Assembly (NCBI GenBank): GCA_017551625.1
Contig: JAFZLF010000018.1
Span: 1 to 64,000 of the forward strand
Direction: 5' to 3'
Length of the DNA stretch: 64,000 nt
Source: Clostridiales bacterium
GTDB taxonomy: Bacteria; Bacillota; Clostridia; Saccharofermentanales; Saccharofermentanaceae
Shown: positions 11,677 to 32,007 of the stretch, in pieces
Layout of the letters: each line of letters opens with the position of its first letter
How positions within the stretch are numbered: position 1 is the stretch's first letter
Notes under the pieces: generated by a model
Seen by the model: only the letters and a program-made list of their open reading frames with translations
What the model was told of the DNA's origin: nothing
The model's database searches: none
Made by a program: the position numbers and the translations under genes

Positions 11677-13299
11677 TCAGTACCCCCACACCGTCACATC
11701 TACGACCTTCTTCTCGTCATTGACATCGATCGAATAGCGCTTGGCCTCGTAATTCTCGAGAATGAAGCTGTAAGTATTCGGGGTAAGATCATTGTCCGGG
11801 TTCGGTTTCGGCTCATAGTCGCCAATCATGCCGACCAGTTCGTCAAGGGTCGTCTCGCCCAGCACGATGACATGGCCGTCGATCTCGACCGAAGTCGCCA
11901 GATTGGAGTTGAAACCGAAGTGGTAGATCTTGCACTCGCCGATCGCCGTATTCTCCACATCCATAGCATCAAAATCGCACACACGCTCAAATCCGTGATT
12001 GATGACGATGCCAACGTGTCTCGATGTAACGGCCGTATCAAGCTCATCGAGCGTATAGTGGTTGTTCTCGTAGTCCGAGATCCTGATCTCGAACTCCTCC
12101 GGATCGAACTGCGCGACGAACTCGCCGAGCGTCTCCTTGAAGTAGATGTCTCCGTAGGAAGTCGTGACCTTGCTTACCGCGCAAAATCCACTTTCTCCTG
12201 GAGCCACGGCAGTTCCTTTACCGCCATCGTCCCCGTCACTATCTACACCAAAGATATTATCCGGATCGCCGCCGTCGACAGTGCCTTTCGCGCCGTCGGA
12301 ATCCTTTCCGCCCTTTTCGCCTTTCCCGGACTTTCCGGACTTCTTATCGTCATCTTTTTCCTTCTCTTCCACCTTCGTCTTTTCCTTCGAATCGCTGTTC
12401 TTCTTAACGATAGCGATCGTTCCTGCGATCGCGGAAATGCCGATCACTCCGGCGATGATCCAAATAACAAACTTCTTCATAATAATACCTGTTCCTTTCG
12501 TAACAGCCGCGGTCGCGGCCTTCATCGCTGCACCCTGCGAAGCAGTAGCAGCAGCTTCCGTCGCTACTTCCTGCGCGGCAGCAGTGGCAACTCCCGTCGT
12601 TGCCCCCTGCGCTGTGGCAGTAGCAGCCTCCATCGCTGCCCCCTGCGAAGCCGCAGAGGGAGCACTTTCCATAGATGCGGACAGGCTCAGAAGCGAAGCG
12701 GAGAGAGGCTTGATCGTCACCTTCTCTGCCTCTTTGGCGAACAACCGGCTTAAGAACGGTATCGCCATACCATAAAGCTTCGTGTCATTGTCTTTCTCAT
12801 ACTTCTCGACCTCCTTCTTGATTTTTTGCTTGGCAAAATTGATGCGCCACGACACCGTTCCCATCGGGATCCCCAGTGCTTCCGCGATCTCCTTCGTGCT
12901 CATCTCGTCGAAGTAAAAGAGGATCAGCGTCCTTCTTACTTCCTCGGACAGGGACTTCTCGATGATGTCCATGATGATCCTTCTCACATCGTCCGACTCG
13001 ACAAGCGCGTCCGGCAGGAAATCCTCCGGCACGGTCTCGAGGTCCTCGAGAAACTCATCGTCCACCGTGTCCGTCTTCGCCATCCTGATGCGATCCAGAC
13101 ACTTGTTCGCCGCGGTCTTCTTGAGCCACGCGGTCACCTTGCTCTTGTCCTTGATCGTGTCATAGGACTTGATCAGCGTGACAAATGCATCCTGCACGAC
13201 GTCCTCCGCGTCCTCTTCGTTATGAAGAAGCGACATCGCCGTCCAGTACACCGCCTTGTAAGACTCGTAATAGATCCGCTCCAGTTCCTCGTTCGTCAT
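11677..13299 (-). CDS. ECF sigma factor fused to a membrane anchor and external domain
   Basis: 540 residues from the ATG at 13299, which has AAAAGGAGG eight bases upstream; an earlier in-frame codon at 13326 lacks this. Residues 10-80 are sigma region 2 (ELERIYYESYKAVYWTA ... AEDVVQDAFVTL); residues 115-170 are region 4 with the helix-turn-helix STKEIAEALGIPMGTVSWR. A low-complexity Ala/Thr/Gly/Gln segment follows (about 205-260, repeats of SQGAA.EAAT), then one transmembrane helix near 270-290, a Lys/Asp/Gly-rich linker and a folded C-terminal domain of about 170 residues without a name. Most ECF factors are 160-200 residues and are held by a separate anti-sigma. Here the tethering part seems built in, so release by proteolysis is a plausible, unproven control. 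Confidence 0.8.
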   Translation of the reverse strand: MTNEELERIYYESYKAVYWTAMSLLHNEEDAEDVVQDAFVTLIKSYDTIKDKSKVTAWLKKTAANKCLDRIRMAKTDTVDDEFLEDLETVPEDFLPDALVESDDVRRIIMDIIEKSLSEEVRRTLILFYFDEMSTKEIAEALGIPMGTVSWRINFAKQKIKKEVEKYEKDNDTKLYGMAIPFLSRLFAKEAEKVTIKPLSASLLSLSASMESAPSAASQGAAMEAATATAQGATTGVATAAAQEVATEAAATASQGAAMKAATAAVTKGTGIIMKKFVIWIIAGVIGISAIAGTIAIVKKNSDSKEKTKVEEKEKDDDKKSGKSGKGEKGGKDSDGAKGTVDGGDPDNIFGVDSDGDDGGKGTAVAPGESGFCAVSKVTTSYGDIYFKETLGEFVAQFDPEEFEIRISDYENNHYTLDELDTAVTSRHVGIVINHGFERVCDFDAMDVENTAIGECKIYHFGFNSNLATSVEIDGHVIVLGETTLDELVGMIGDYEPKPNPDNDLTPNTYSFILENYEAKRYSIDVNDEKKVVDVTVWGY

Positions 13300-13472
13300 G
13301 AATCTTGCCTCCTTTTCTATCCGCATCTACTTACTAGACGTATGACGGACAGATTTTCTTGGGTAGCTCGAGAAAAATTTTTGAAAATCTTTTTTCAGGT
13401 TAGATTATACATCAGATCAACAACTCCTATCCGAAACCAAATAAACCGATTTCCGCACTTTTATACACGTAT

Positions 13473-13538
13473 TTTCGGAAATTTCTTTCCGAAACATTAA
13501 TATAAAAACTTGTTTTCTGTCTTTTTACGATGTACAAT
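13473..13538 (+). promoter_or_regulatory. Palindrome and promoter upstream of the AbiL-like pair
   Basis: TTTCGGAAA (13473-13481) and TTTCCGAAA (13486-13494) form a tight inverted repeat with a 4-base centre; related half-sites (TCCGAAA, ATTTCCG) lie just upstream. TTGTTT (13510-13515), a 17-base spacer and TACAAT (13533-13538) make a plausible promoter for the operon starting at 13563. The palindrome may be a repressor site, fitting a defence operon kept low. Confidence 0.6.
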
Positions 13539-13562
13539 AGCATCAAGAAGGAGGCATCTACT

Positions 13563-14765
13563 ATGTTGTGTCAGTTTACGTTTAAAAATTTCAAGTCCTA
13601 CCGCGATGAGACTACCCTGGATTTCCAGGCAGCCTCTATTCCTGAATTCCATGACTCATTGATTACTGAAGAAGATGCATCTGATCTTCTTCCTGTCAGT
13701 GTCATCTACGGCCCGAATGGCGGTGGCAAATCAAATCTCCTGCAGGCTCTATCCTGCGTCATTTCGAAGGTCGTAAAGTCTGTACACGACCTCGATAAAA
13801 ACCGTGAACCGATTATTCTTCAGCAGAAAACAGATGCCGTCCCGTTTCTTTTTGACACCGTATCTGCAAACGAGCCCATCGAGTTCCGTCTTTTCTTCCG
13901 CATCGGCAGAAATGAATACTGCTACTATATCGCATTTCAGGATGACGAGGTCACATCTGAATCCCTGTCACGCAAAACCGTAACAGGGAAAAAGCCGGCA
14001 GAACTTTTCGATCGGGAGAACGATAAGATCACTCTCGGATCCAGTATTAACAGGAAAAGCATCAACACCAACGTCAACCCGAAGATGCCATATCTTTCTT
14101 TTCTGGCGATCAATTACGATATTCCTGATATCAGCGAAGTCATGCTCTGGTTCGAGCGATGCATCATCAGAAGTTATTCCAACCCGATCGCCGAGCACCA
14201 GATCATGTTGGAGAAATACCCGGATTTCAAGGATCTTCTTATCCTCGCCCTGAACGACATGGACATCGATATTACTGATTACAGGTACGATGAAGACAGT
14301 CATCAACTGTATATGAAAAGAAAACTCGGAAAGAAGGAGTATGAATTATCTTTCGCCGAGGAATCTGACGGCACGCGGAAGCTGATCGCTGCCCTTCCCG
14401 TCATCCTCCTCGCTCTTCGTGATGGACGTCTACTAATCATCGACGAACTCGACGCCAAGCTTCATCCGAAGCTCCTTCGCTATGTGATCTCGCTTTTCAA
14501 GAACAAAGAGATCAACCGGCATGGTGCTCAGCTTCTTTTCACTTCGCATGACATGTACACCATGCGCAGCACGGTATTCCGCAGGGATGAAATCTGGTTT
14601 GCCGCCGAGGACGACGATCACGCAAGCGAGATCTATTCTCTGCACGAACTGAGAAACGAAGATGGTGACCGCATCAAGAATACCGCATCATATAACAAGC
14701 AGTATCTCGAAGGCCGCTATGGTGCAGATCCATATCTTCAGAACATGCTCGGAGGGAATTTCTGA
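13563..14765 (+). CDS. AAA ATPase, AbiLi/RloA-like, of a phage-defence pair
   Basis: 400 residues from the ATG at 13563, preceded by AAGGAGG; a codon at 13530 is in frame but upstream of that site. Family: ABC/SMC-like AAA ATPases (AAA_15/AAA_21). Walker A is YGPNGGGKS near residues 49-57, a signature-like EESDGTRKL lies near 265, and Walker B is LLIIDELDAKLHP near 290-302, followed by a switch His region (LFTSHD). The start of the next gene overlaps its stop (TGATG). ATPase plus RloB-type Toprim protein is the make-up of AbiL of lactococci, a two-gene abortive infection system in which the ATPase senses phage and licenses the nuclease. The defence role is taken from that family. Confidence 0.8.
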   Translation: MLCQFTFKNFKSYRDETTLDFQAASIPEFHDSLITEEDASDLLPVSVIYGPNGGGKSNLLQALSCVISKVVKSVHDLDKNREPIILQQKTDAVPFLFDTVSANEPIEFRLFFRIGRNEYCYYIAFQDDEVTSESLSRKTVTGKKPAELFDRENDKITLGSSINRKSINTNVNPKMPYLSFLAINYDIPDISEVMLWFERCIIRSYSNPIAEHQIMLEKYPDFKDLLILALNDMDIDITDYRYDEDSHQLYMKRKLGKKEYELSFAEESDGTRKLIAALPVILLALRDGRLLIIDELDAKLHPKLLRYVISLFKNKEINRHGAQLLFTSHDMYTMRSTVFRRDEIWFAAEDDDHASEIYSLHELRNEDGDRIKNTASYNKQYLEGRYGADPYLQNMLGGNF

Positions 14766-15433
14766 TGAGTCTGAAGCCACTTAAAAAGAGTGATCTTTCC
14801 AAAAACTGGATGCAGCCCCGAATTGATCGTCGAAAGTCTCTCCAGCCCGAGTATCACCTGATCGTTACAGAGGGTACGGATACGGAACCTTCCTATTTCG
14901 GTGCCATGAAAGAGATCATCAACAAGAGCTATCCTGACAGAATCCAGCTTGTCGTACAGGGAATGGGTGATAACACACTTAGTCTTTTCCAGAAGGCTAG
15001 GCGACTCGCCGAATCATCCGCAAACGGGTATAAACATGTCTGGATCGTGTACGACACGGATGATTTCCTTGCCGAGCACATCGATGAGACCGCACGTCTT
15101 TGCGAGAAGGAGTCTTCCGAAGAAACGACATACCATGCCATATGGTCAAACCAGTGTATCGAGCTGTGGTTCCTGCTTCACTTTAGTTATCTGCAGTCTG
15201 ATCTGCATAGAAAAACATACTGGCCGAAACTTACGGAACAACTCGTTTCTCTTGGAAAAGGCAAGTACTCTAAGAATCGCCAGGACATGTACGAGATCCT
15301 CTATCCGTTCATGAATACGGCCATCTCCAACGCCGAGAAGCTTGATCGAGTCAACAGTGGCAAACTTCCCTCCGCATCGGCACCCGGAACGAAAGTCCAT
15401 CTTCTGGTAAAGAAACTCAAGCCTTATCTGTGA
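14765..15433 (+). CDS. RloB-family Toprim-like nuclease, AbiLii-like
   Basis: 222 residues. YHLIVTEGTDTEPSYFGAM near residues 31-49 carries the conserved Glu of the RloB/Toprim-like fold; VWIVYDTDDF near residue 90 supplies the DxD-type acids; NQCIELWFLLHF near 130 is the third conserved block of RloB proteins. The gene overlaps the ATPase stop by one base, so the two are translated together. In AbiL- and PARIS-like systems the Toprim partner is the effector that cleaves nucleic acid (for PARIS, tRNA) after the ATPase detects infection. Here the target is unknown. It ends 20 bases before a convergent membrane-protein gene, with no clear terminator between. Confidence 0.78.
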   Translation: MSLKPLKKSDLSKNWMQPRIDRRKSLQPEYHLIVTEGTDTEPSYFGAMKEIINKSYPDRIQLVVQGMGDNTLSLFQKARRLAESSANGYKHVWIVYDTDDFLAEHIDETARLCEKESSEETTYHAIWSNQCIELWFLLHFSYLQSDLHRKTYWPKLTEQLVSLGKGKYSKNRQDMYEILYPFMNTAISNAEKLDRVNSGKLPSASAPGTKVHLLVKKLKPYL

Positions 15434-15453
15434 GGAATACTATAACCAGTTCG

Positions 15454-16293
15454 TCACTCATCGTTCACCACAACGATGGTGTCGTTCTCGGGGATCTCGA
15501 TCGAATCCGGGTTCAATTCCGCTTTGCGCTTGTGCTCGAGGTTCCATCCCATATTGTGCTTGCGCCGGAGCCATACCGAACACAGAAGGACGCCCAGTCC
15601 CAGAACCGCGAACCGTGCATAGGAGATGACGACGACCACCCATCCGGCTGATTCGGGGCGAGGATTTGACGCGGACACCCACGGAGTAACCACAAATGAG
15701 AGCGCCGAGGCCAGAGCGACCCAGACCTGGTACTTCGCCACTTTCTTAAGGACCGGCATCGTCGCCGCCATCCACGCAAGGAGAGCCAGGAAGAACGCGA
15801 ACTGGTACATGAGCCAGGAACGGCTGATCCTTCCGGGGCGGCACATGGCGCAGGCCGTCCCCAGAACTTGCGCGGCAACGGAAACAAACCAGGCCCACTT
15901 TGCAGCGCTTTTCCCGTCAAATCTTTTCTCGATAAACGAAAAGAAGAAAAACACTTCCAGCAACGTCAATGTCACGACACTCACGATCTCGAAAAGAGAG
16001 TTCCAGACAACTGCCGTGTCCCACCTCGGCCGGAGAAATAACAGAATAAAACAGAAAAGATACCACGGTATATGAAGGTACCGGCTGAGTTTTCGTTCCG
16101 CAAGGAGGATCACGATGGTCACCACGCAAAGGCCCGCCTCGAAGACGAGCAGCGGCCCCGTCTGCCCACTCACCCAGCCGACCGGACGGATGTAGTAATT
16201 GAAGTACCGGTAGAGCTCGAATCCCCCGAACAGCAGGAAGCACGCAACCGCGCCAAAAAAGAAAAACTTGTCAGATCTTTTCTCCACGATCAT
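15454..16293 (-). CDS. Multi-pass membrane protein of unknown function
   Basis: 279 residues with about eight hydrophobic helices, the first at residues 10-25 (FFFFGAVACFLLFGGFELYR) and the last near 225-245, and a charged cytosolic tail. No transporter or enzyme motif is visible. Its first 90 residues resemble the truncated membrane protein at 28181-28424 (shared FGG-ELYR-type block and spacing of the first three helices), so the two are paralogues that flank the 16.4-28.2 kb region. The start at 16293 has only a weak GGGGTG upstream. Confidence 0.6.
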   Translation of the reverse strand: MIVEKRSDKFFFFGAVACFLLFGGFELYRYFNYYIRPVGWVSGQTGPLLVFEAGLCVVTIVILLAERKLSRYLHIPWYLFCFILLFLRPRWDTAVVWNSLFEIVSVVTLTLLEVFFFFSFIEKRFDGKSAAKWAWFVSVAAQVLGTACAMCRPGRISRSWLMYQFAFFLALLAWMAATMPVLKKVAKYQVWVALASALSFVVTPWVSASNPRPESAGWVVVVISYARFAVLGLGVLLCSVWLRRKHNMGWNLEHKRKAELNPDSIEIPENDTIVVVNDE

Positions 16294-16442
16294 TCACCCC
16301 AAAGCAGCAAGCGTTCCTTAGACTCATCCTTCAGTATCGAGCTGTAACTCATTCCACCGAAACACAAGCATTTACACTATACCATTCTCTGAAATACATG
16401 CAAAGAATCTTAAGGATGATTTCGGCTAACGCAGACCTTCCA

Positions 16443-18320
16443 TTATTCCGGGTTTGTTGTTTCACACTTGCGCTCTTGGATTTTCACTCTCACGCGAAAC
16501 ACTTTCTTGAGTTTATGAAACACCTTTTCAGCTTCTGATCTGTCCATGATGCACAACTGGAAAGTCTCTTTATTGGCCGGCAGTAATTTCTTATATCTGT
16601 ACTGATTAGCAAAGTCAAGCAGAGGTTTTGAGATCGGATGTTTATTATCCTGCACTACTTCCAGAACATAGTATGTCTTTATGCCCCTCTTTTTCGCGAC
16701 CTTATCGGCTTCTTCTACCTCTTCCAACTCATGGATTTTCTGATCGATCCGTCTGATGACCTCGTTCAGGTCCTCCTGTTCTATGCCTAACCCTTTGCTA
16801 GCGTTATCACTTTCCGGACCTTTCTCTGGGTGTGATTTGAGGATTTCATCTCTTTCATCAAATTGCAACCACTCCGGAACAGGCAGTTTCCCAGCCCTAT
16901 ACTCCTGCACGATCTTCTTTAGGTGAAATTCCTCAGGTTGACTTCTTGTCTCAGGTTTATTCATCTTTGGATCCGTCACCAGCTTGACGTTGAAAATCTG
17001 AGTATAATCGGGAAGCCAGCTGATAAACTTCACGCGTCCCGAGATAATTACCAGCGCCTGTCCCACCTCCATCGCTCCGATCTGCACCGGAGTAATAAGC
17101 GGTTCCACGATCCGTTTATCCCCATAATCGACCTCACGCTCACCACACTTTTCGGAGAGTTCCTTGAGCGTCGGTACATGGTTGGTGCGAAAAGCCACGA
17201 TGGTATCCGCATTTGAGGTGATCGTTGTCGCACGGCTGTGTCCGTAAATATCGTCAAGTTGACTGAAACTCTGTAAAACGATGCTTGTTCGGATATTGCG
17301 GGACCTTCCGGCAGACATCAGAGTCGGCAGATTAGGAATCGCTCCGCCACCGATATTGCCGAGTTCTTCGATCACAACATTTACGCGTCGCGGAAGCTTG
17401 CCATTAAATCTCTCGTGGGCGATTTTGATGTAGTGGGAGACGATCTGGTTGACCGCGATTCCGCTTATCGCAGAGTAATACTCTGTCTCATCCGGAGTTA
17501 CGATGTACACGATTGTTTTTCCTTCTCCATCCAGCGAACTGATTTTGAAGTCATCCGTCGTACTCATCTTCATCAGGCCCGGATTTTTAATAAATGTGTT
17601 AAGTGGTTGATATGTCACAGCAAGAATAGAATTCATCGTATCGCTGGGTGCCGAGCAGACATTCTTCAGGAGAAAGGAAAATGACTCTGACGGAGCCATC
17701 TCACAGACTTCATCGAAGTATTTCTTTACGCCGGATCTAGCCACTCCATCGCTGATGATTCTATATACATTCAGCAAAGAGATCTCATTCTGACTCCGTG
17801 CATACTTAAACAGGATCTCCACCGACGCTTCAAAAAGACTTCTAGCCGAATCGGTCCAGAATGGATCCTGGCTCGATCCCGGCGCATGCAGGAATATGGA
17901 TTCAGCAACAGTTCCGATGAGTTCATGGGCAAGCTGCACATCGCTCTCAGTACCCTTCTTGTATAATTCGTAAGGATACATCAGGATGTTAAAGCCCATA
18001 CTCTGTTCCAGATTTCTGAAATTCAGTACAACGATATTGTACCCTCTCTTCTTTGCTTCAGCATACGAGGCGTGAAGCAGATCTCCTTTGGGATCGACGA
18101 TAACCTCGCTCTCCTCTCCTTCGATACAGGAGAGAACAAGCGGCGTTGTTCCTCTTCTGGTCTTTCCGGCACCGGAAACGCCAAAGAAAATAAGATTCGA
18201 CTCGTTATCAAGTGCAAACTTCTTATGGGTCTTTGGATCTACATAGAGAACTGCCCCAGCGCCATCAGGATTCAAAACATTCTGGATCTCGCTTTTATTC
18301 GAGTATCTCTCACTTCGCAT
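16443..18320 (-). CDS. VirD4/TraG-like ATPase without membrane anchor
   Basis: 625 residues of the VirD4/TraG coupling-protein family (HerA/FtsK superfamily). Walker A is GVSGAGKT near residue 50, followed by VIVDPKGDLLH near 85; Walker B is VNVVIEELGNIG near 320, then MSAGRSRNIRTSIVLQSFSQ near 340-360. Usual members have two N-terminal membrane helices; this one starts directly with the ATPase part, and has a C-terminal extension of about 200 residues that I do not recognise. I chose the ATG at 18320 (GTGAGG nine bases upstream) over 18341. It overlaps the end of the gene before it. No relaxase or other type IV secretion genes are nearby, so a conjugation role is unlikely from context; it may be a soluble pumping ATPase working with the adjacent ClpP. 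Confidence 0.75.
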   Translation of the reverse strand: MRSERYSNKSEIQNVLNPDGAGAVLYVDPKTHKKFALDNESNLIFFGVSGAGKTRRGTTPLVLSCIEGEESEVIVDPKGDLLHASYAEAKKRGYNIVVLNFRNLEQSMGFNILMYPYELYKKGTESDVQLAHELIGTVAESIFLHAPGSSQDPFWTDSARSLFEASVEILFKYARSQNEISLLNVYRIISDGVARSGVKKYFDEVCEMAPSESFSFLLKNVCSAPSDTMNSILAVTYQPLNTFIKNPGLMKMSTTDDFKISSLDGEGKTIVYIVTPDETEYYSAISGIAVNQIVSHYIKIAHERFNGKLPRRVNVVIEELGNIGGGAIPNLPTLMSAGRSRNIRTSIVLQSFSQLDDIYGHSRATTITSNADTIVAFRTNHVPTLKELSEKCGEREVDYGDKRIVEPLITPVQIGAMEVGQALVIISGRVKFISWLPDYTQIFNVKLVTDPKMNKPETRSQPEEFHLKKIVQEYRAGKLPVPEWLQFDERDEILKSHPEKGPESDNASKGLGIEQEDLNEVIRRIDQKIHELEEVEEADKVAKKRGIKTYYVLEVVQDNKHPISKPLLDFANQYRYKKLLPANKETFQLCIMDRSEAEKVFHKLKKVFRVRVKIQERKCETTNPE

Positions 18321-18813
18321 AGGATAATACCTCACTTTCATTTACATCGCACGTCATGAGCCGGATCTTAACCGAAAGATTTCCCAATACTCGTCCGGTA
18401 TCTGTTCCGTTCACATCATCGACAAAGAAGAGAAAATTCGCATGCAGACTGTATTGAGGCTGACAGATCGTCTTACAGAAGTATTCTGCTGCCATCCTGT
18501 TCCGAGGCAGAAGCAGTTCCGTCAGATCAAAGGCAAGTACGCCTTCAAAGTAGTTATCATATACAGCTGCTGATGCAATACATCCGAAGACATACTTTAT
18601 TTGTGAGAGAGTTCCGTCCAAAGTAAAGAACAGATATCTGTCAAGGCCATGGAACACCCGCAGTTTATTCTCAGCCATGAGATTGGCATATTCCTGAGCA
18701 AAAGAGTCCATCTTCGATGTCGGCAATCCCGTGACAACCCAGTGGCACGGTGCCTCATCTTCACTGTGATTGGCGTATTTGATTTCGTAATCCATCACTT
18801 TACTAAGCATCAT
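18310..18813 (-). CDS. Uncharacterised protein between ClpP and the VirD4-like ATPase
   Basis: 167 residues from the ATG at 18813, where AAGGAG stands seven bases upstream inside the ClpP coding region; other in-frame starts at 18819, 18810 and 18795 are possible. It overlaps the ClpP gene by 11 bases and the VirD4-like gene by 11, so the three are tightly coupled. The chain is mixed alpha/beta, with GLDRYLFFTLDG near residue 60 and HANFLFFVDDVNG near 135, and has no signal peptide or membrane helix. I do not recognise the family. Position suggests a subunit or adaptor for one of its two neighbours. Confidence 0.6.
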   Translation of the reverse strand: MMLSKVMDYEIKYANHSEDEAPCHWVVTGLPTSKMDSFAQEYANLMAENKLRVFHGLDRYLFFTLDGTLSQIKYVFGCIASAAVYDNYFEGVLAFDLTELLLPRNRMAAEYFCKTICQPQYSLHANFLFFVDDVNGTDTGRVLGNLSVKIRLMTCDVNESEVLSYAK

Positions 18814-19402
18814 CCTCAATCTCCTTTCCGATGATACGATCTACCAGGCCGTATTTCTTCGCTTCAACTGCACTCAGCCAGTAGTCTCTGTCCATATCCT
18901 TGAGAAGCGTCTTCATTCCTTTCCCGGTATGTTCGGAAAGATGCCGGGCAAGCTTCTCACGAGTATTCAGAATATGGTCGCACACCCTGCTGATTTCTGA
19001 AGCCTGTCCCTTCACCCCGCCGATCGGCTGATGAATCATCACCTCAGCATGCTTTCCGATAAGACGCTCACCCGAATCGCCACTGGCCAGGATCACCGCC
19101 GCCATCGAAGCTGCCAGTCCATAGCAACAAGTACTGACGATGCAAGGAGATTCTTCCATCGCATCAATGATTGCAAAACCGGCCGATACCGACCCACCTG
19201 GGGAATTGATAAAAAGCGTGATCGGGTCAGAAGACATATCCTCGAGAACATGCATCTGTGAGATAATGTTCGTCGCACACATATCCTCGATCTCACCACA
19301 GAGATAGATCCTTCTGTTACTCAGTTCATAACTGAGCGGCGATATCAACTGCTCAGTTCCGCTTCTGTTTACAATTACATTGGGTATAAACAACTCACTC
19401 AT
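18803..19402 (-). CDS. clpP: ClpP-family serine protease (extra copy)
   Basis: 199 residues, start at 19402 after TGGAGGTCAAAT. All parts of the ClpP active site are present: Ser in GLAASMAA near residue 97, His in VMIHQPIGG near 122 and Asp in DMDRDYWLS near 170. INSPGGSVSAG near 65 is the substrate-binding turn. ClpP forms a 14-subunit barrel that degrades chains fed by an AAA+ unfoldase. Housekeeping clpP usually sits next to clpX or tig; this copy instead precedes an unknown gene and a VirD4-like ATPase, so it is probably a specialised paralogue with its own feeder. Whether it assembles with the VirD4-like protein is only an idea. Confidence 0.88.
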   Translation of the reverse strand: MSELFIPNVIVNRSGTEQLISPLSYELSNRRIYLCGEIEDMCATNIISQMHVLEDMSSDPITLFINSPGGSVSAGFAIIDAMEESPCIVSTCCYGLAASMAAVILASGDSGERLIGKHAEVMIHQPIGGVKGQASEISRVCDHILNTREKLARHLSEHTGKGMKTLLKDMDRDYWLSAVEAKKYGLVDRIIGKEIEDDA

Positions 19403-19413
19403 ATTTGACCTCC

Positions 19414-19440
19414 ATTCAAACTTGAATAGTATTAATTCAA
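19414..19440. promoter_or_regulatory. Clustered ATTCAA/TTGAAT half-sites before clpP
   Basis: ATTCAA (19414-19419), TTGAAT (19422-19427) and ATTCAA (19435-19440) form two overlapping inverted pairs, 6-2-6 and 6-7-6, directly upstream of the clpP ribosome binding site. This looks like an operator for the clpP cluster; no regulator is identified. Confidence 0.45.
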
Positions 19441-19549
19441 AGAAAAAGCACTGACCTCTTCCTGTTTTCGTTTCATAGTCCTCCCATCTACATGATAGGT
19501 TCTTTCAATGTCTGACGTGCATTCCCATAGGATACAAATCAAACGCTCA

Positions 19550-20065
19550 TTAAGAATCGTCCGATTGCAGTCGTTCAAGCGCACATGTCAGTAACACTCG
19601 ATAGTATTCTTTCATATCTGGTTCGATTCTCCCGGCACACATGCGACTCAAAGTCTTATATAACCGACAAGCTTCACTTGTCATCGAACGCACATATATC
19701 CAGAAAAACTCACTATCAAATGCCCCGGGGCGAACCAGATAAGAATAATCAAAGAAGACTACACCTGTTTCCATATCAATACGAAGATTGGTAAATGCTT
19801 TGTCCCTATACTCCGTCAGAAACAATGCCAGTATGGGAAGCATCCCTTGTTCAGAAGCGAAAGGGAAGACTAGCCGGATATTAATCTTCTTGTCATACGC
19901 AAAGAAATAGATACGCATTTTGTAATCATTGATAACAATCTCCATTACCAGAGCATTACTATGTTTCGAAGATGTAAGAAATACAAACGAATTGCAATCA
20001 AGTTCTTCTTTTATGACATCTATTAAACTTATCGGTTTTTCTTCCAAGCTATCCATACACTTCAT
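19550..20065 (-). CDS. YbjN-like small protein
   Basis: 171 residues from the ATG at 20065 (a GTG at 20068 is also possible). The pattern of a strand-rich core (EIVINDYKMRIYFFAYDKKINIRLVF split over residues 45-70), then two helices flanking RIDMETGVVFFDYSYLV, resembles the YbjN fold, related to type III secretion chaperones. YbjN-type proteins bind other proteins and have no enzyme motif. The gene stands 147 bases upstream of clpP on the same strand and may belong to the same unit. A second YbjN-like gene at 32072-32494 precedes the ClpC-FtsH fusion, which makes the pairing with proteolysis worth noting. Confidence 0.5.
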   Translation of the reverse strand: MKCMDSLEEKPISLIDVIKEELDCNSFVFLTSSKHSNALVMEIVINDYKMRIYFFAYDKKINIRLVFPFASEQGMLPILALFLTEYRDKAFTNLRIDMETGVVFFDYSYLVRPGAFDSEFFWIYVRSMTSEACRLYKTLSRMCAGRIEPDMKEYYRVLLTCALERLQSDDS

Positions 20066-20123
20066 CACTTCCCATGTATTCTAAGATCTGACTCATTCGC
20101 TCGACTTCGAAACAGCACAGTCC

Positions 20124-20498
20124 TCACAGGCGCTCGCAACCATGAGCATCAAGATAGTCATTGAGTTCGTCAATATCATAGTCGGCATAATAATCATCAG
20201 AATGTTCGCGAAGATACTGCCAGATCAGCCGGTTCTCATCGCTCATCCTTGGGCTCAGCACAATATTCGCCGCCTCAAGATAATCCGCAAACAAAATTGC
20301 AGGGACATTGGCGCCAATGCCAATGCGGAGATAAATAACGGGGTCGTGACTTTTTCCGCTCCTTACTTTATAATAGTAGCGTCGGGATTCGTAATCAGCA
20401 TACACACAGACTTCAATCACAGTCCGGTGGCAACGCTTTCTTGATTCGAACAGAATCTGATCGATTCTGCGGCAGGCTTTTGTGGAAAGCTGTTTCAT
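20124..20498 (-). CDS. Small hypothetical protein
   Basis: 124 residues; the ATG at 20498 follows GAGGAGG with good spacing. The N-terminal half is basic, with a strand pattern (VIEVCVYADYESRRYYYKVR), the C-terminal half acidic and Tyr/Asp-rich (DDYYADYDIDELNDYLD). No family recognised. It is the first minus-strand gene of the YbjN/clpP/VirD4-like group and is divergent from the STAND ATPase gene, sharing a 117-base intergenic region with the repeated word TAGTGCGACATT-like near 20575-20600. Confidence 0.55.
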   Translation of the reverse strand: MKQLSTKACRRIDQILFESRKRCHRTVIEVCVYADYESRRYYYKVRSGKSHDPVIYLRIGIGANVPAILFADYLEAANIVLSPRMSDENRLIWQYLREHSDDYYADYDIDELNDYLDAHGCERL

Positions 20499-20615
20499 GG
20501 TGTTTACCTCCTCGTATAGTATGTGACCATTTTATAACTGACAACTTTTGCTGTCGTAGACATCAGTGCATCAATAAGTGCGACATTAGTGCGACATTTT
20601 CGAAAGGCAAATAAT

Positions 20616-23462
20616 ATGACCAGATACAAAATCGGAGAAGCTGCTATAATTAGATTTTTAACAATAGAAGAACCATTAGGTGAGGATGAAAGATTCTACA
20701 ATATCTATTATCCGGATTCAACGAATGCTCTTACTCCAGTACTCGAGAGATGCATTGCTGCTTTAGCATATTTGTACAATCAGTCTCATCGAGGCATCCT
20801 CCCTAAAGAGATAGCCGAATTTTTACCTGAGGGTAGTGTCAATCTTGATATTCCCGCTATAAGGAAGAGAATCCAACGCGTCAAGGAGAAGAACGAACTG
20901 TGGGATAGCCTGATCAGACATCCAGTAAATGAGAATGGTAAGCAAGGGAACGGCTTCGAAATTGGTGATTTTGAGGAGATACCTGACGCTCCCCTCTCTC
21001 AAGAAGTTTCTGAGAACACGAATGATATTGATGAAACTGTTTTTCAGAATTGCTCAGATGACACTTCACTTGAAGGAAATATATCTAGCAGTAACGAGAA
21101 CACCAATTCCACCCACACTTCTTCAGCATCCAACGCTAATGTTAAATACCCTGCAAATAAGGTATCCGTAGCCTGTCAAAACAAATCGTTTTTCCGTACA
21201 GACGAGATTAGCAACATTAGGGATCTTCTACTCTCATGCCAGCACTCTGCCATTGCGCTATCTGCAGATGGTGGAATCGGAAAATCCACGATAGCCAGAG
21301 AACTCTATTTCGACACCCAAATCAACGAGCATTATTCCAAAGTAATATGGATAGACTATATCGGAAACCTTGACGATTCTATCCTTAACGCCGTAGATAT
21401 GTTCTCGGAAATACCCGACAGAGACATCCGGCTATCGATGATACATGAATACCTTACCAATCATACGGAGCCCGTGTTGCTTTTTATCGACAATGTCATC
21501 GACGACAAGGTTGCAAATCAAGATCCTATTCACGAAAAAGGCACTTTTACTCCGCTAAATGTGTCAAGCCTATCTGCGCATGTCGATGTGCTTATTACGA
21601 CAAGACTCGACGCTCTTCCAAACGAAGAGTATATCATTGTGCGTATAGAAAGCTTTAAAGAGAATACTGATCTTGGCGAAGATCTATTCTTGTTTCACTA
21701 CAATTCGCTCAAATCAACTTCATCGATTTCATGCGCAACCAGAAGCCAAATCAAGCAAATCGTGACCTGGTGCAATGGGAACCCTTTCGCCATTATGCTG
21801 TTTGCAAAGCAGGCCGCCAGTTCTTCGTTAAGAAGTGTATATGAGCATCTTAAAGGTTACTTTTCGGCCAACCAGAATACGAGCTTGTCTACGGAACAAC
21901 TGATTGATGCTGCGATAGCACACAGGGCATTCTCTGAAGCAGAAAGGCGGATTGTGCTCGGATTTGCAATCTTGCCAAATATATATCTGACGGAAAATGA
22001 ATGTTCGGAATGGTTCTCTTACGATCTATCCTGTATCAGCCAACTTGCATGCGAAGGTTGGTTGGAGAATGAATCTTCCGATAATAATCGATATCAGATG
22101 CATGATCTTGTCAAGTACGCTATCAAAAAAAGCAAGATTGGGCTGGATTGCGCAGACATACTACTAGACGAGGATAAATATGCATATGAAGATTACAGTA
22201 TGACGTACAAGTTTGCATCTCGAGAGGGCTTAGTTCCCTCATTTATTGACTCGTATACTAAACTGATAAGTATGATTTGTGAGAATAACCAGTCATCTTT
22301 ATATGATCCTTCCATCTATTCTCAAGTCACTCGTCTAGTCGAGGTTCTTAAAACGACTTTGATATTCTGTATTCTTACAAATATGCAGCGTGCCAGAATC
22401 GCTCATATGATTGCTACCATTTCATTCAAGATTATCAAAAATGACATCCTTACATACAACAGTTACAGTCATGCCATCAACTGTATGAGACGTTGTAGCT
22501 CACGCGCCAGAAACAGATCCGAAGAATTCGAAGCACAGCAATTCATGTTCCATTATCATTTTGACTTGGGTTATTTTCTTTCTTCATTAGAGAGCAATCG
22601 ATATACCGAGGCAGAAGGAATATTACGTCGTGCTACAGGTTTTCTTAACCAGACATACTCAAAATACTTAACCGATACCGATAAGGATTTTGTTTACATT
22701 TCCAATAATATTGTTTTGGTTCTTCACGAATCAGACATTGATCTTCTTGATACTCACTTTATCAAAAGAGTACTCTCAGAAAGATATACCAACAAGCTCG
22801 AAGAATTCATCAGGGACTATGCTACCGTTCTCGATCATTTGGGCTATATCCTGACTATATCCAACAACGGAGATTTCGAAGAGGCGAAACTGCATCTGAA
22901 GATTGCTGAAGAACTTGTATGTACATTATATGTTACTAATTCGGAGAAGTACAAGCGTTTACTCGCCAGAATAGATGACAACCTCGGATATCTTCTTTTC
23001 CACATCGGTCCGGAATATCCAGGTTCAAATTACCATCTGCAAAAAGCGCTTAATGCCAGGAAAGAGCTTCTACGAGAAGACCGATACAAGTATATCTCTG
23101 AGTACTCCTGGACGCTAAACAATCTTGCAGAATTGCAGACATGTATGGGCGGCGATAATCTCACCGAATCGGAGAAGAACTATAGAAAAGCAATCGAAAT
23201 GCGAGAAGAACTGAACACCAACAAACATGGTAAATACCGTCACTATATCGCATGGTCCAACTACGGATTAGGTCGTTGTCTCGCGCGGCAGGGCAGATTG
23301 AGTGAAGCGAAGGAATACTTTAAAGCTGCACTTGATATATATACTGATCTCGCAGCCAAGACAAAATCCTATAAGAAAGACTGTGAGTATGTCCGGAATG
23401 TTGATATGGATCTAGAAGATGAATTCAAACCATGGATAGGAAACCATTCGCACTTCAACTGA
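20616..23462 (+). CDS. STAND (NLR-like) ATPase with TPR-type repeats
   Basis: 948 residues from the ATG at 20616 (AAAGG nine bases upstream); a GTG at 20589 is in frame but poorly placed. Residues 1-100 look like a helical DNA-binding or effector domain; 100-190 is a Ser/Asn/Glu-rich linker. The NB-ARC-type ATPase begins at VSVACQNKSFFRTDEI; the P-loop is GGIGKST near 219, Walker B LLFIDNV near 290, sensor LITTRLD near 328, and the winged-helix MHD-like QMHDLVKYAI near 495. From about 600 to the end there are helical repeats, clearest in the last 150 residues (TPR-like NLAELQ, EKNYRKAIEMREEL). This is the layout of bacterial NLR-like STAND proteins, many of which sense phage proteins. The defence role is inference; a regulator role is the alternative. 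Confidence 0.75.
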   Translation: MTRYKIGEAAIIRFLTIEEPLGEDERFYNIYYPDSTNALTPVLERCIAALAYLYNQSHRGILPKEIAEFLPEGSVNLDIPAIRKRIQRVKEKNELWDSLIRHPVNENGKQGNGFEIGDFEEIPDAPLSQEVSENTNDIDETVFQNCSDDTSLEGNISSSNENTNSTHTSSASNANVKYPANKVSVACQNKSFFRTDEISNIRDLLLSCQHSAIALSADGGIGKSTIARELYFDTQINEHYSKVIWIDYIGNLDDSILNAVDMFSEIPDRDIRLSMIHEYLTNHTEPVLLFIDNVIDDKVANQDPIHEKGTFTPLNVSSLSAHVDVLITTRLDALPNEEYIIVRIESFKENTDLGEDLFLFHYNSLKSTSSISCATRSQIKQIVTWCNGNPFAIMLFAKQAASSSLRSVYEHLKGYFSANQNTSLSTEQLIDAAIAHRAFSEAERRIVLGFAILPNIYLTENECSEWFSYDLSCISQLACEGWLENESSDNNRYQMHDLVKYAIKKSKIGLDCADILLDEDKYAYEDYSMTYKFASREGLVPSFIDSYTKLISMICENNQSSLYDPSIYSQVTRLVEVLKTTLIFCILTNMQRARIAHMIATISFKIIKNDILTYNSYSHAINCMRRCSSRARNRSEEFEAQQFMFHYHFDLGYFLSSLESNRYTEAEGILRRATGFLNQTYSKYLTDTDKDFVYISNNIVLVLHESDIDLLDTHFIKRVLSERYTNKLEEFIRDYATVLDHLGYILTISNNGDFEEAKLHLKIAEELVCTLYVTNSEKYKRLLARIDDNLGYLLFHIGPEYPGSNYHLQKALNARKELLREDRYKYISEYSWTLNNLAELQTCMGGDNLTESEKNYRKAIEMREELNTNKHGKYRHYIAWSNYGLGRCLARQGRLSEAKEYFKAALDIYTDLAAKTKSYKKDCEYVRNVDMDLEDEFKPWIGNHSHFN

Positions 23463-23505
23463 ATATTCATTCAGTAAAACCAAGTCAAAAACCCTGGAGG
23501 AGAAT

Positions 23506-23793
23506 ATGAACAAGAACAGTTTTTCTATGATTGATAAAAATGGAAACGAGGTCATTTACGACGTACTCTTCACATTTGAAAGTGACGAAACCGGCAAAAA
23601 CTACATTGTCTATACAGATAATTCCAGAGATGAGAATGGCAGCATTCAAGTATTTGCATCCATCTATGACCCAGAAGACCCCGAAGGTCATTTAGAGGCC
23701 GTAACCACCGACGAAGAATGGAATATGATTGAGGAAGTACTTGAAAGAGCACGAGAAGAAGCCCAGCGTGCCAAAAAGGATCTCGATGAGTAA
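23506..23793 (+). CDS. DUF1292 family protein
   Basis: 95 residues, ATG after GGAGGAGAAT. The stretch FSMIDKNGNEVIYDVLFTFE followed by KNYIVYTDNSRDENG, IQVFASIYDP and a C-terminal ATTDEEW-like block matches DUF1292, a small beta-rich family common in Firmicutes, usually next to ruvX-like (yrrK) genes. Function unknown. Here it follows the STAND ATPase gene by 43 bases, away from its normal neighbours, so it is probably an extra copy carried in the accessory region. The C-terminal 25 residues form a charged helix. Confidence 0.75.
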   Translation: MNKNSFSMIDKNGNEVIYDVLFTFESDETGKNYIVYTDNSRDENGSIQVFASIYDPEDPEGHLEAVTTDEEWNMIEEVLERAREEAQRAKKDLDE

Positions 23794-23908
23794 TACTCAT
23801 TAATCAGAAAAAGCCTGTTTCTTTCGTATTGTATTTTCCTAAAATACATCCTTTTCAGTCTTCTGATTGATAATAGAATCACAATCAAGTGAAAAGGAGA
23901 AGAGAGAA

Positions 23909-25195
23909 ATGGCAGGGACAAAAAAGATCAAGCATCCCATCTTATTGACACTTGGAGTTGTCTTTATTTTTCATTCAGTTTTAAAGAACAATAATGATGC
24001 CTCAAGCAATAAGCATGACGCTGTCAGCATCACGTCGTCAGATAGTTCGCAACCTGAAGCCAAAACCGAAGAAGTCTATTCTCCCACATGTGAGGAAACA
24101 GTATATGCTAAACCCGAGACCTATGTAGAAGATAGCTTGTGGGATACCGGAACAATCACTACCAGCAGTGAACGATCATACTCCGATGAAACAATCGACT
24201 CGCAAAACGAAAACAGTTCTTCATACGTATCTGCTTCATATTGGGACGCAAATCCATATACTGCAATTGAAAAAGCAATTCAAGAGATGGCATCTCAGAT
24301 CACAATTGAAGATGATGCGTACACGCTTACATGGGCGGACGTTGGCACGATGCCATATGGGAGTTTCTGGATCAAGAGCATCACAAGTTCACATTATACC
24401 GAAAACGGACATGATTACAACACGTACTATTTTGAATACTATAATGTCTCTTCTGACGACATTATAGAGATGAAGGCTCAGATCGATGAACGCTATCAAG
24501 AGATTGTTTCATATATTCCGGAAGATGCCGATACTTTTGAGACAGCGAGAATTGTTCATGACATTTTAGTCTCCGAGATCTCATACGATCATACTCTGAC
24601 TCAGGATTATAGAACGAGTGTCTATGGCGGTCTTGTTCGTGGCCAAGCGGTCTGTTGCGGTTATGCGACTACATATTGTTTCATCCTTAACAGATTAGGC
24701 ATCCCCTGTCAAATCATCCAAAATGATGACCACTCCTTCAATAAAATCGGGAGTACCTATGTTGATGTGACCTGGGACGATGATGATTGTATTGACGAAA
24801 ACGGAAATGCTGTTATCAGATACACATATTTCGGAATGAGTCTTGATACCGTAAATTCGATTCCAGCTCACGAGGTAGCCTATGTTTCATATAACGAAGG
24901 ATCGGATGCATATATTTTGCCCTCCTACTTTGAGTACTACGGATACGAATTGTCTTACTATGACTATAACGCAATTGTCAATATCTTTCGCGAACAATAC
25001 TCTACGGGCAATCTTTTCCCCTCGGTTCATTTTGCGAACTCCGATGCTTACTATGAATTTGCCGAGAAAATCAATACAGATATCTGGTCAATTCTTCCTG
25101 ACATCGGATATAGCGGAGAATACATCGTATTCTATCCTGATGAAGAAAACCTAACTTGGAGACTGGGACTAAGTCCTGTCATCAGCCTCGATTAA
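23909..25195 (+). CDS. Membrane-anchored transglutaminase-like protein
   Basis: 428 residues from the ATG at 23909 (AAGGAGAAGAGAGAA upstream). One hydrophobic helix at residues 10-27 anchors the protein, followed by a Ser/Thr/Glu-rich linker to residue 110. The transglutaminase-like core has Cys in QAVCCGYATTY near 249, His in NDDHSFNKIG near 274 and Asp in YVDVTWDDDD near 286, the usual Cys-His-Asp triad. Members of this group act as proteases or cross-linking enzymes outside the cell. It begins a run of three plus-strand genes for membrane or surface proteins (to 27224) with good individual ribosome binding sites. Confidence 0.75.
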   Translation: MAGTKKIKHPILLTLGVVFIFHSVLKNNNDASSNKHDAVSITSSDSSQPEAKTEEVYSPTCEETVYAKPETYVEDSLWDTGTITTSSERSYSDETIDSQNENSSSYVSASYWDANPYTAIEKAIQEMASQITIEDDAYTLTWADVGTMPYGSFWIKSITSSHYTENGHDYNTYYFEYYNVSSDDIIEMKAQIDERYQEIVSYIPEDADTFETARIVHDILVSEISYDHTLTQDYRTSVYGGLVRGQAVCCGYATTYCFILNRLGIPCQIIQNDDHSFNKIGSTYVDVTWDDDDCIDENGNAVIRYTYFGMSLDTVNSIPAHEVAYVSYNEGSDAYILPSYFEYYGYELSYYDYNAIVNIFREQYSTGNLFPSVHFANSDAYYEFAEKINTDIWSILPDIGYSGEYIVFYPDEENLTWRLGLSPVISLD

Positions 25196-25292
25196 GACGA
25201 GACTATTGACCTCACATTTGTGTACCCTTATCAACTACAGTGTCAAGTCAAAGTATTTATATAAACCAACTGCAAATTTGAGGAGGTACTCT

Positions 25293-26141
25293 ATGATACG
25301 TTCAAGAACATGTCCAAATTGTGGTGCTCAGTATGACGTGAGAAATGGTTATTATCACTGTCCGTACTGCAATTCCACATTCGATATCCTTCCAGACGAG
25401 TCAGAAGTGGTTCGTCACACACCGACTTTCGAAACAAGAGAGAATAGTCCGGCAAGTCTCCCTTCTGTACCAAGTCAGGCTAATATTCCCAGCCATTCGC
25501 TTAATGACGGCTTCTCTTTCGCCGCTATCGCTTGTGGTGTTATCGCCGTCATAGTGATCATATCCATCTTCAACTTGGGAAAGAAAAAGGATTCCTGGAC
25601 TCTGTCGGATAATGCGAATCGCAACGGGAACACAGAGAATACAATCAGTAATGGCAGTTCATCGCACAAGCCGAGTGATACGAATGCTGCACAGCCTACC
25701 GTTCCTGATCACGTCTATTTGACATCCATCGAACCGTATACATATTCAACGAATTCATTTCCTTTCTACGAGTTGTGTGACGGATCTAAGGACATATTTG
25801 GAAATGCTTACAGCACAGGAATACGCGCGAATAAAGGAGAAGCCTCTGTTTCTTACCGTCTGGATTCCGCGTATCGTTTCTTTACATTCACTCTCGCGGT
25901 TGATGAATACGAAAAAAGCAACAAGGATGTTGAAGGGAGTGTACGAGTATACGCAGATGGAGTCATTATCTTCGAACGTGTCGGGATCACTTCAGATTTT
26001 GAAACAGAAAGTGTTTCTCTAGATGTTTCAGGCACTAAAGACCTGACTATTGAGCTTTACGGAGACTATGTAACCGAGGCATCCATTACAGGATTTCGTA
26101 CACTCTATCCGATGATCTGTGATCCGATTCTTTACCGGTAA
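25293..26141 (+). CDS. Zinc-ribbon membrane protein with external NPCBM-like domain
   Basis: 282 residues from the ATG at 25293 (GAGGAGG upstream; an earlier in-frame ATG at 25206 is unlikely). Residues 6-27 are a zinc ribbon (CPNCGAQY ... HCPYCNSTF), expected in the cytosol. One transmembrane helix lies near 72-90 (AAIACGVIAVIVIISIF). Outside the cell a Ser/Asn-rich linker leads to a jelly-roll-like domain from about 145 with GNAYSTGIRAN, VSYRLDSAYRFFTF and LTIELYGD, the pattern of NPCBM/NEW2 carbohydrate-binding modules. This joins a cytosolic metal-binding head to a possible sugar-binding sensor. No enzyme motif is seen. Confidence 0.7.
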   Translation: MIRSRTCPNCGAQYDVRNGYYHCPYCNSTFDILPDESEVVRHTPTFETRENSPASLPSVPSQANIPSHSLNDGFSFAAIACGVIAVIVIISIFNLGKKKDSWTLSDNANRNGNTENTISNGSSSHKPSDTNAAQPTVPDHVYLTSIEPYTYSTNSFPFYELCDGSKDIFGNAYSTGIRANKGEASVSYRLDSAYRFFTFTLAVDEYEKSNKDVEGSVRVYADGVIIFERVGITSDFETESVSLDVSGTKDLTIELYGDYVTEASITGFRTLYPMICDPILYR

Positions 26142-26174
26142 TCGATTAGCATTAAGATGAGGGAGGACATAAAA

Positions 26175-27224
26175 ATGGAAAAGACCAAGAAAAAATTTAA
26201 TTCTTTGTACATCTACATCAGTCTTATCATCCATACCTTCTGGGTCATAACTTTCTGGATATGGTACAGAATCATTCTGTTCAGATGTCTTCCACATCAC
26301 TCACTGCATGAATCGAAGTGCATCCTGATTGGATTGGTTATATGCACTTCTATCATTGGAATGACAATTGATGTGACATACAAAAAAGATGGATATTTCC
26401 CGTTTTTAAACCCTATCATCGGATTTGGTATGTATGCTTCGATGTCATATATGTTCTTGCATAGTCGTCTGGTAATCATTTCTTTAATAACTTGCTGTAT
26501 CATTTCCATTGCGAGTACGCTTCTTTTGTTCATCCGCAACCATAGAGGCAGACACGGTACAGCTTTATCTACAAAAAAACGAATACATCTAGTTCTGATC
26601 AGAAGCAAGTCAATTGGGGCTCTTGGTTTCGTATTCATTATGGTATTCATAAGTTTACCTATCATTTTCCACGGTTATCTGATCAAGGCATCCGTCTCGC
26701 CAGCTAAACTATCGGATACAGGTGTATGGACGCTGCAGAACCAGAAAGAATCTCTCTTACTTCTAGATGAGGACTCGTGGAAGGAGTTATCGATCACAAG
26801 GAGACTTAACATTTGTCAGATCATTGCAAATATCGAGACACAACGTTTAGGACTACATCACGAATTAAATGTTGTTGTCTCCGACATCAAAAGTGATGCT
26901 TTTGCCTACTATGACGAAAGCCAACATATGATCGTCATCGATTTAGAATGCTTAACTTACAGTTGTGCGGCCGAAACATGTAATACAGTTACGCATGAGT
27001 CTTTTCACGCCATGCAAAAGCAATTAGTCAATGAATATAGCGGAAATGAATCCAAGGAAATCGATACCGCACTTACAACGTACAAACACGAATTTGAAAA
27101 CTATATAAATCCTGAAACAGATAAGTTAGGCTACTACACCCAAACATGCGAAATATCGGCCAGAGAATATGCCAGATTAGAAACATCGATGATTCTGAGC
27201 CAGATTGAATCGTCAGAAGAATAG
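26175..27224 (+). CDS. Membrane protein with metallopeptidase-like HESFH motif
   Basis: 349 residues from the ATG at 26175, with GGGAGG upstream. Five or so membrane helices occupy residues 12-170 (for example LIIHTFWVITFWIWYRIILF). The C-terminal part is soluble and has THESFHAMQKQL near residue 272-283, a zinc-metallopeptidase HExxH motif, preceded by a strand with MIVIDLECL and followed by ISAREYARLE, which may give the third ligand Glu. It follows the NPCBM-type gene by 33 bases and is likely cotranscribed. Substrate unknown; with the transglutaminase-like and carbohydrate-binding neighbours a role in cell-envelope remodelling or signalling is possible. Confidence 0.6.
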   Translation: MEKTKKKFNSLYIYISLIIHTFWVITFWIWYRIILFRCLPHHSLHESKCILIGLVICTSIIGMTIDVTYKKDGYFPFLNPIIGFGMYASMSYMFLHSRLVIISLITCCIISIASTLLLFIRNHRGRHGTALSTKKRIHLVLIRSKSIGALGFVFIMVFISLPIIFHGYLIKASVSPAKLSDTGVWTLQNQKESLLLLDEDSWKELSITRRLNICQIIANIETQRLGLHHELNVVVSDIKSDAFAYYDESQHMIVIDLECLTYSCAAETCNTVTHESFHAMQKQLVNEYSGNESKEIDTALTTYKHEFENYINPETDKLGYYTQTCEISAREYARLETSMILSQIESSEE

Positions 27225-27305
27225 ACAAGGGGATATCCACATGAAAGATAGTGTATACTGATATTATGCCCTGAATAATCGATGAAGAATTGACGAGTTA
27301 ACTAT

Positions 27306-28180
27306 ATGGAACAATCAGCAGACCTGCTCTCAAAGAAAACCCAAATCAAGTCTGCGGATATGACGCAAGTATCTGCAAGAAGAGAAAGACTCAGAGAAAA
27401 GCCAGAATTAAGGTATCTATTCTTCGAGTTAACAGATCAATGCAATCTCGGTTGCCTCCACTGCGGTAGTACCTGCACTAGTACAAATCATCGGTACCTA
27501 GACAAGGGCTTAATTTGCCGGACACTACGTGAAGTCAATGAAGATTTTCCTCGTAACTCCGTCATGATCTGCCTTACTGGTGGAGAGCCTCTTCTTCATC
27601 CGGATATCTTCCCTATTATCGAAGAAATAGTACGCCTGGGTTTTCCCTGGGGAATCACAACAAACGCAACTCTCGTCGATTTACCCACTGCACAGAGATT
27701 AAAACAATATGCACTTCACTCCGTAACAGTAAGCTTGGATGGTCTTAGAAAATCACACGAGTGGCTACGGAATAGTCAAGGCTGCTATCAGAAAACAATA
27801 GATGCCATCAAGTTATTCAAACAGGTGGGAATACCAGTACAGGTTACTTCGGTAATACATAGAAAGAACATAAACGAGCTGGAAGAACTATATACTCTCA
27901 TGACGGATCTGGGTGTCTCATCCTGGCGCGTCGTGAATATTGAACCTATAGGTCGTGCTTTGCACAATAAGGATCTGCTCTTAACTAAAGATGAATTCAT
28001 TCATTTGCTCTCATTCATCCGCGAGAAGAGGTTCTCAAGGCAAACGCCTATGGAAGTATGTTTCGGCTGTTCGCACTATCTCTCCTTTGATTTTGAACAC
28101 GAGCTGCGAGATAATTACTTCCTTTGCGGTGCCGGAATCTTAGTTGGCGGAATCCTTTGCAATGGAGATATTGTTTCTAC
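27306..28180 (+). pseudogene. Radical SAM/SPASM protein gene cut at its 3' end
   Basis: The first 290 codons are a normal radical SAM protein: CNLGCLHC near residue 46-53 binds the 4Fe-4S cluster, MICLTGGEPLLHPDIF near 88-103 follows, and the start of the C-terminal SPASM part is present (FLCGAGI ... CNGDIVST). After about 28180 the similarity stops: the frame continues open to 29162, but that part is the antisense of a membrane-protein fragment and of the ClpC-FtsH gene. The remaining SPASM cysteines are therefore missing. Intact relatives modify peptides or carry out RiPP and cofactor maturation. I read it as a gene truncated by a recombination junction; a shortened functional product is not excluded. 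Confidence 0.65.
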
Positions 28181-28424: not shown

Positions 28425-28442
28425 AAAACTCACAACAGTGTT

Positions 28443-31934: not shown

Positions 31935-32007
31935 GAGAAACAAACCGTCCCTTCAGTATTCTTTTATCATTCGGGTGCTATCCCTCTTTCGGATCCGAAT
32001 CAATCAC

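Follow-up and report, generated by a model that had tools for sequence, protein, structure and literature searches.

The window analysed here is a 64,000-nucleotide stretch of the genome of a Clostridiales bacterium of the family Saccharofermentanaceae (contig JAFZLF010000018.1, positions 1 to 64,000), and it contains a minus-strand gene cluster in which a ClpP peptidase is encoded beside a soluble ATPase of the VirD4/TraG type. These two proteins very probably work together. An earlier sequence-only reading of the window had described four genes here, and all four open reading frames (ORFs) are present; a fifth lies upstream on the same strand.

16443-18320, minus strand: soluble VirD4/TraG-type ATPase with T4SS-DNA_transf and TraG-D_C matches, 625 amino acids (aa) from the ATG at 18320
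18310-18813, minus strand: ORF for an orphan protein of 167-169 aa between ClpP and VirD4, no homologue
18803-19402, minus strand: ClpP (Pfam CLP_protease, 1.1e-59)
19550-20065, minus strand: ORF for an orphan of about 171-172 aa, ~150 bp upstream of ClpP, candidate member
20124-20498, minus strand: orphan ORF of 124 aa, upstream on the same strand, candidate member

The genes for ClpP, the orphan and VirD4 are tightly packed. The likely start of the orphan gene is the ATG at 18813, which overlaps the ClpP stop by 11 bases, and the likely start of VirD4 is the ATG at 18320, preceded by a GTGAGG ribosome-binding site and overlapping the orphan gene's stop by 11 bases; the longest ORF for VirD4 would start at ATG 18341 and encode 632 aa. 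These starts bear out the 11-base overlaps described previously at both joints. The label "YbjN-like" given to the 172-aa protein fared less well: neither Pfam nor NCBIfam matches it, and the search of 115 genomes of the family gave no homologue, hence its kinship with YbjN is unproven.

Recurrence of the ClpP-VirD4 pair

The source genome (3.18 Mb, with the window on contig C17) encodes a second ClpP-VirD4 pair on contig C36, in which the genes overlap by 4 bases and the proteins are 33% (ClpP) and 25% (VirD4) identical to those of the window. In a search of the 115 family genomes with the C36 VirD4 sequence alone, the 11 top matches, itself included, score at least 168 bits and all adjoin a ClpP gene. 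The next matches examined (at most 153 bits) are conjugative VirD4s with VirB4 neighbors and no ClpP, except for L071, a diverged locus with the order ClpP-unknown-VirD4. Across the order (188 genomes), all 14 places scoring above 430 bits adjoin a ClpP gene that is extra to the housekeeping ClpP of most genomes, and a class-wide sample yielded three further pairs. High-scoring ClpP-linked VirD4s occur in about 12 of the 188 genomes of the order, and a single genome has at most two copies, which are divergent.

Among 84,980 species genomes, a scan detected 306 relatives, and the best 80 loci (0.96 Mb) were read. ClpP is linked to a soluble VirD4 in 71 of these 80 loci across Clostridia, including Lachnospiraceae, Oscillospiraceae, Ruminococcus, Butyrivibrio, Saccharofermentans, and others. 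Its gene lies immediately upstream in 63, immediately downstream in five, across an accessory gene in two (the order seen in the window), and at a distance of 2.9 kb in one. Because the profile that found these loci was built from ClpP-linked VirD4s, the share with ClpP is a biased estimate; the family search with a single sequence is less exposed to this bias. The distance matrices of VirD4 and ClpP are strongly correlated (Mantel r=0.88, n=72), as they are after thinning to 43 rows with differences above 35% (r=0.85, against at most 0.45 in 2000 permutations). The correlation indicates shared inheritance, from which alone physical contact does not follow.

What recurs is the pair and not the full cluster. 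The co-occurrence of four genes envisaged by the sequence-only reading stands for ClpP and VirD4, while both small genes of the window are orphans; profile comparison joins neither to the accessory superfamily found elsewhere, and a fixed four-gene system with a YbjN-like protein was rejected on these grounds. A search for homologues of the 169-aa protein found none, nor any similarity to the main-clade accessory, and its single-sequence AlphaFold2 model (mean predicted confidence, pLDDT, of 38) was not used. Small partners at other loci differ from, or are unrelated to, those of the window. Many loci of the main clade have a gene for a protein of 200-330 aa adjoining ClpP. The commonest accessory family has 28 genes in 26 loci and is joined to five other families by profile comparison (hhalign, 82-99%). 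The AlphaFold2 model of the A2 accessory is confident and all-helical (pLDDT 88), and a comparison with the PDB gave no match (best E 0.39).

A VirD4-type ATPase without a membrane anchor

The window VirD4 matches Pfam T4SS-DNA_transf (1.6e-32) and TraG-D_C (1.2e-22), and its best curated model is the conjugal CD1115 family of NCBIfam, at 225 bits, just below its cut-off of 250. The family search found no AAA domain and no HerA_C domain in this protein. It possesses a Walker A motif (GVSGAGKT), an insert of the all-alpha type, a Walker B motif (VVIEEL), and a C-terminal extension of about 170 aa. As noted earlier from the sequence, there is no N-terminal hydrophobic segment: the 19-residue Kyte-Doolittle maximum over the whole protein is 1.58, compared with a median of 2.14 in conjugative VirD4s. 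Such a segment is found in none of 75 VirD4s of the module (the linked ClpP and VirD4) and in 20 of 22 conjugative VirD4s. Residue positions in VirD4 and ClpP were assigned from MAFFT alignments, in which the Walker B acidic pair is DD in all 73 main-clade VirD4s, DE in all 22 conjugative VirD4s, and EE or DE in the lineage of the window.

ClpP: an intact catalytic site and an altered docking surface

The catalytic triad Ser97-His122-Asp171 (E. coli mature numbering) is kept in all 72 module ClpPs, including that of the window. Compared with housekeeping ClpPs, the module proteins differ at a series of surface residues: R22 is replaced by E or another residue (mostly E), Y/Q60 by T, I90 by V, M92 by I or T, and F112 by E or Q. 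From work on E. coli ClpP, these positions presumably form the pocket on which ClpX and ClpA dock. The window ClpP follows the same pattern of change with other letters (Y22, T60, F62, C90, Y92, and L112). As judged from the aligned residues, the docking surface of the module ClpPs is remodelled, in most of them away from the ClpX-type pocket.

Two VirD4 lineages and probable retron relatives of one

In a VirD4 tree of 44 rows, the window protein and that of L024 join VirD4s of the window's genus that are linked to a reverse transcriptase (RT) (100/100). The remaining clades are a main ClpP-linked clade (96/91) and a conjugative clade (99/98), and a supported branch (99/98) divides all soluble VirD4s from the conjugative VirD4s. 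L024 comes from another genus, shows 35% identity, and has the ClpP-unknown-VirD4 order of the window. The ClpP tree likewise groups the window with L024 (99/95), apart from the remaining module ClpPs (97/92) and the housekeeping ClpPs (96/88). Thus, the two trees agree at their deepest split, as both separate the window and L024 from the main clade. The link with ClpP is present in two separate VirD4 lineages; possibly it arose twice, or it had one origin with a loss in the RT-linked lineage.

The VirD4s most closely related to that of the window (45-49% identity) have a retron-type RT gene next to them. In five loci of the window's genus (L008, which is contig C46 of the source genome, and L020-L023), a VirD4 of 726-900 aa is followed by an RT. 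The RT on C46 has a retron model, RT_Ec107-like, as its best PADLOC match (6e-86), and the RTs of the other four loci match it. Between the genes, at the VirD4 end and RT start, lies a structured region with complementary ends GACCACAG...CTGTGGTC and conserved stems, in a layout like that of retron msr-msd; the called RT ORF reaches upstream into this region in L020 and L022. These features strongly suggest that the VirD4-RT loci are retrons, and retron-linked sisters make a defense role for the VirD4 lineage of the window more likely. Family searches revealed no RT among the proteins of the window cluster itself.

The arrangement of VirD4, structured RNA, and RT (L008:7696-11490, and L020-L023) is a conserved cassette beside copA in this genus, and on its sequence features it is a candidate for a new type of retron whose effector would be VirD4. 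In another congener (G102; L019:9605-10381), a 258-aa orphan lies directly downstream of a VirD4 that is among the closest to that of the window (47-48% identity), at the position occupied by the RT in other congeners.

A variable genomic island

The cluster lies in an exchangeable part of the chromosome, delimited by comparison with congeners.

13327-28442, no strand assigned: variable low-GC island of ~15 kb carrying the module
13530-14765, plus strand: AAA_21 ATPase, first gene of an AbiL-like pair, flanking neighbor outside the module
14765-15433, plus strand: RloB-like protein, second gene of the pair, outside the module
20589-23462, plus strand: NB-ARC/TPR STAND protein (family match), flanking neighbor outside the module

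Family matches on both flanks agree with the previous placement of the cluster between an AbiL-like pair and a STAND ATPase. The paired genes resemble AbiLi and AbiLii (PADLOC, 6e-83 and 5e-27), the second being RloB (2.1e-40). The GC content of the module is 45%, versus 55% for the core. In the congener G107, the sigma factor gene (window 11677-13326) and the AAA-M41 gene (window 28443-31943) that border the island are adjacent, with one small membrane-protein gene between them, and the site is without the AbiL pair, the ClpP-VirD4 cluster, and the STAND gene. In G097, the region beyond the AAA-M41 side holds an unrelated cluster with ThiF-JAB, HerA_C-like, AAA_2, and TIR proteins.

The G097 cluster at this same chromosomal site (L251 7124-18964, on G097 contig C46) encodes proteins of the AAA_2 and TIR types, a ThiF-JAB fusion, and a HerA_C-like ATPase; it is possibly a prokaryotic ubiquitin-like conflict cluster. 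The bordering gene at 28443-31943 (minus strand) is itself unusual. Its 1166-aa product is a tandem AAA-FtsH fusion in which a Clp/Cdc48-type AAA_2 domain and a second AAA domain are joined to an FtsH-type Peptidase_M41, and over the compared parts it is 93% identical to its counterpart in G107 and 80% to that in G097. Among the wider set of loci, a DEAD/RecQ-like helicase family is found near the module in 24 (e.g., L134, L142, L161, and L167), and L061, L172, and L176 encode proteins nearby that resemble, by eye, the DUF488 and dual-OB families.

Possible functions

A function in defense or conflict is probable, given the patchy distribution, the swapped site, the flanking AbiL and STAND genes, and the retron-linked sisters. 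Tentatively, and at a little short of an even chance, ClpP and VirD4 are read as a single cytosolic, energy-driven proteolytic system, recruited from conjugation motors and carried in exchangeable conflict islands, where it would probably act against phages. An anchor-free VirD4 ring would recognize a target, which could be a phage protein, a DNA-protein complex, or a guard or antitoxin, by means of its all-alpha face together with a small adaptor that differs between loci (in the window, the 169-aa protein; elsewhere, a helical A2-type protein). Upon ATP binding or hydrolysis, VirD4 would pass the target to its dedicated ClpP, or would open ClpP. Whether the small proteins are adaptors is evenly balanced. 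If the VirD4 ring fed ClpP directly, both the loss of the anchor and the altered docking surface would be explained; such docking of the motor on the peptidase is rather unlikely. Equally speculative is the idea that a VirD4 ring, possibly on two occasions, became a cytosolic ClpP motor, a DNA or protein pump replacing the AAA+ unfoldase in an immune machine that degrades proteins or nucleoproteins, and that its sister motors became retron effectors.

Several observations weigh against this proteolytic system. ClpP is not nearby in nine of the 80 loci (one of which ends at a contig edge). No consistent ClpP-binding motif or IGF-like loop is found in VirD4; a docking tripeptide was considered and rejected, since any [LIVM]G[FL] occurs in only 26 of 72 proteins. 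The change of the catalytic Glu to Asp in the main clade could indicate a weak or non-processive motor. Some neighbors in the 80-locus set are of defense type (19 PADLOC families among 134 neighbors, counted without a control set), and these matches are not used as proof. Finally, a Clp/Hsp100-type AAA+ ATPase has its own gene in seven of the 80 loci, and six of these ATPases have an IGF-like loop, so ClpP may have a conventional partner there:

L157:1336-3183, Clp/Hsp100-type AAA+ ATPase
L170:8256-10100, Clp/Hsp100-type AAA+ ATPase
L186:3578-5497, Clp/Hsp100-type AAA+ ATPase
L209:124-1374, Clp/Hsp100-type AAA+ ATPase
L183:8938-10026, Clp/Hsp100-type AAA+ ATPase
L176:2811-4289, Clp/Hsp100-type AAA+ ATPase
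L179:927-2405, Clp/Hsp100-type AAA+ ATPase

These separate ATPases, together with the missing docking motif in VirD4, make the main alternative a two-step defense in which the partners do not dock. The VirD4 ring would sense or translocate DNA or DNA-protein complexes. ClpP would act apart from it, breaking down an inhibitor, an antitoxin, or a phage protein with the help of a Clp-type AAA+ ATPase encoded in the locus or by the host. VirD4/TraG motors are established translocators of DNA. RecQ/DEAD-type helicase genes occur in 24 loci, in several cases in the same operon direction, which also favors this reading. ClpP is present in five of the seven AAA+ loci (L176 and L179 are without it), and in four of these five its residue 112 is hydrophobic, compared with 16 of the 67 ClpPs of other loci (uncorrected Fisher p=0.019). 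However, 73 of the 80 loci have no Clp-type AAA+ gene within the stretch read, and most of the ClpP docking surfaces have moved off the ClpX-type pocket. Two-step defense is possible but somewhat doubtful. A housekeeping or regulatory role of the proteolysis in Clostridia, in stress or development, would fit the chromosomal location (only one locus with a relative was found among IMG/VR contigs) and the occurrence of some loci among ordinary metabolic genes. It is improbable in light of the patchy presence and divergent copies within the order, the island site that is empty or swapped in congeners, and the retron association of the sister VirD4s.

It is most improbable that the cluster is a remnant of, or an accessory to, an integrative and conjugative element, with VirD4 as a leftover coupling protein and ClpP as a passenger, even though VirD4 belongs to the coupling-protein superfamily and is best matched by a conjugal model. 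The absence of secretion genes reported before holds around the window VirD4, where no gene of a type IV secretion system (T4SS) was found. Homologous clusters inside conjugative elements were also sought among the 80 loci: VirB4 and VirB6 were found in none and a relaxase-like ORF in one, with conjugative controls positive. The 15 best plasmid matches listed are at most ~31% identical and, where annotated, are of the conjugative CD1115 type. The missing anchor, the missing T4SS, and the separate clades largely refute this explanation, and the intact Walker motifs and ClpP triad also speak against it.

Relation to known systems

Each part of the module belongs to a known superfamily, and its predicted novelty lies in their combination. 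Coupling proteins of the VirD4/TraG/CD1115 group are known as parts of secretion systems. The window VirD4 resembles them in its P-loop domain, TraG-D_C motif, and the position of its all-alpha insert, whereas module VirD4s differ in lacking an N-terminal membrane segment, a T4SS, and a relaxase, and in having a ClpP partner and DD (main clade) or EE/DE (window lineage) in Walker B. With ClpXP, ClpAP, and ClpCP, the module shares the ClpP fold family, an intact Ser-His-Asp triad, and a ring motor beside a barrel protease; however, its partner gene is of the VirD4 type instead of AAA+ Hsp100, and the docking residues of ClpP are changed. The known ClpP machines all pair with an AAA+ Hsp100 or a proteasome-type motor. 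A further analogy is found in the SIR2-HerA and DUF4297-HerA defense systems, in which an ATPase of the FtsK-HerA superfamily is encoded beside a hydrolase effector in defense islands. There the ATPase is HerA-type and the effector an NADase or nuclease, while the module has a VirD4-type ATPase and a ClpP peptidase. Retrons consist of an RT, a noncoding RNA, and an effector; although the nearest kin of the window VirD4 lie beside a retron-type RT with structured RNA between, the window cluster has ClpP and neither RT nor noncoding RNA.

PADLOC has no model that joins ClpP and VirD4. A search of PADLOC-DB 2.0 with ClpP, the orphans, and VirD4 of the window gave only a weak mad8 match for VirD4 (23.5 bits), and no PADLOC model matched the main-clade VirD4 or the A2 accessory. 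A literature search confined to open-access papers found none that joins ClpP with VirD4, TraG, or HerA in one system. If the proposed function is true, Clostridia that are abundant in the gut and rumen would possess a novel type of energy-dependent protease, which would probably also be a new immune system. The module offers a testable pair, of which nature provides hundreds of variants, to examine whether proteins can be unfolded and threaded by VirD4 motors.

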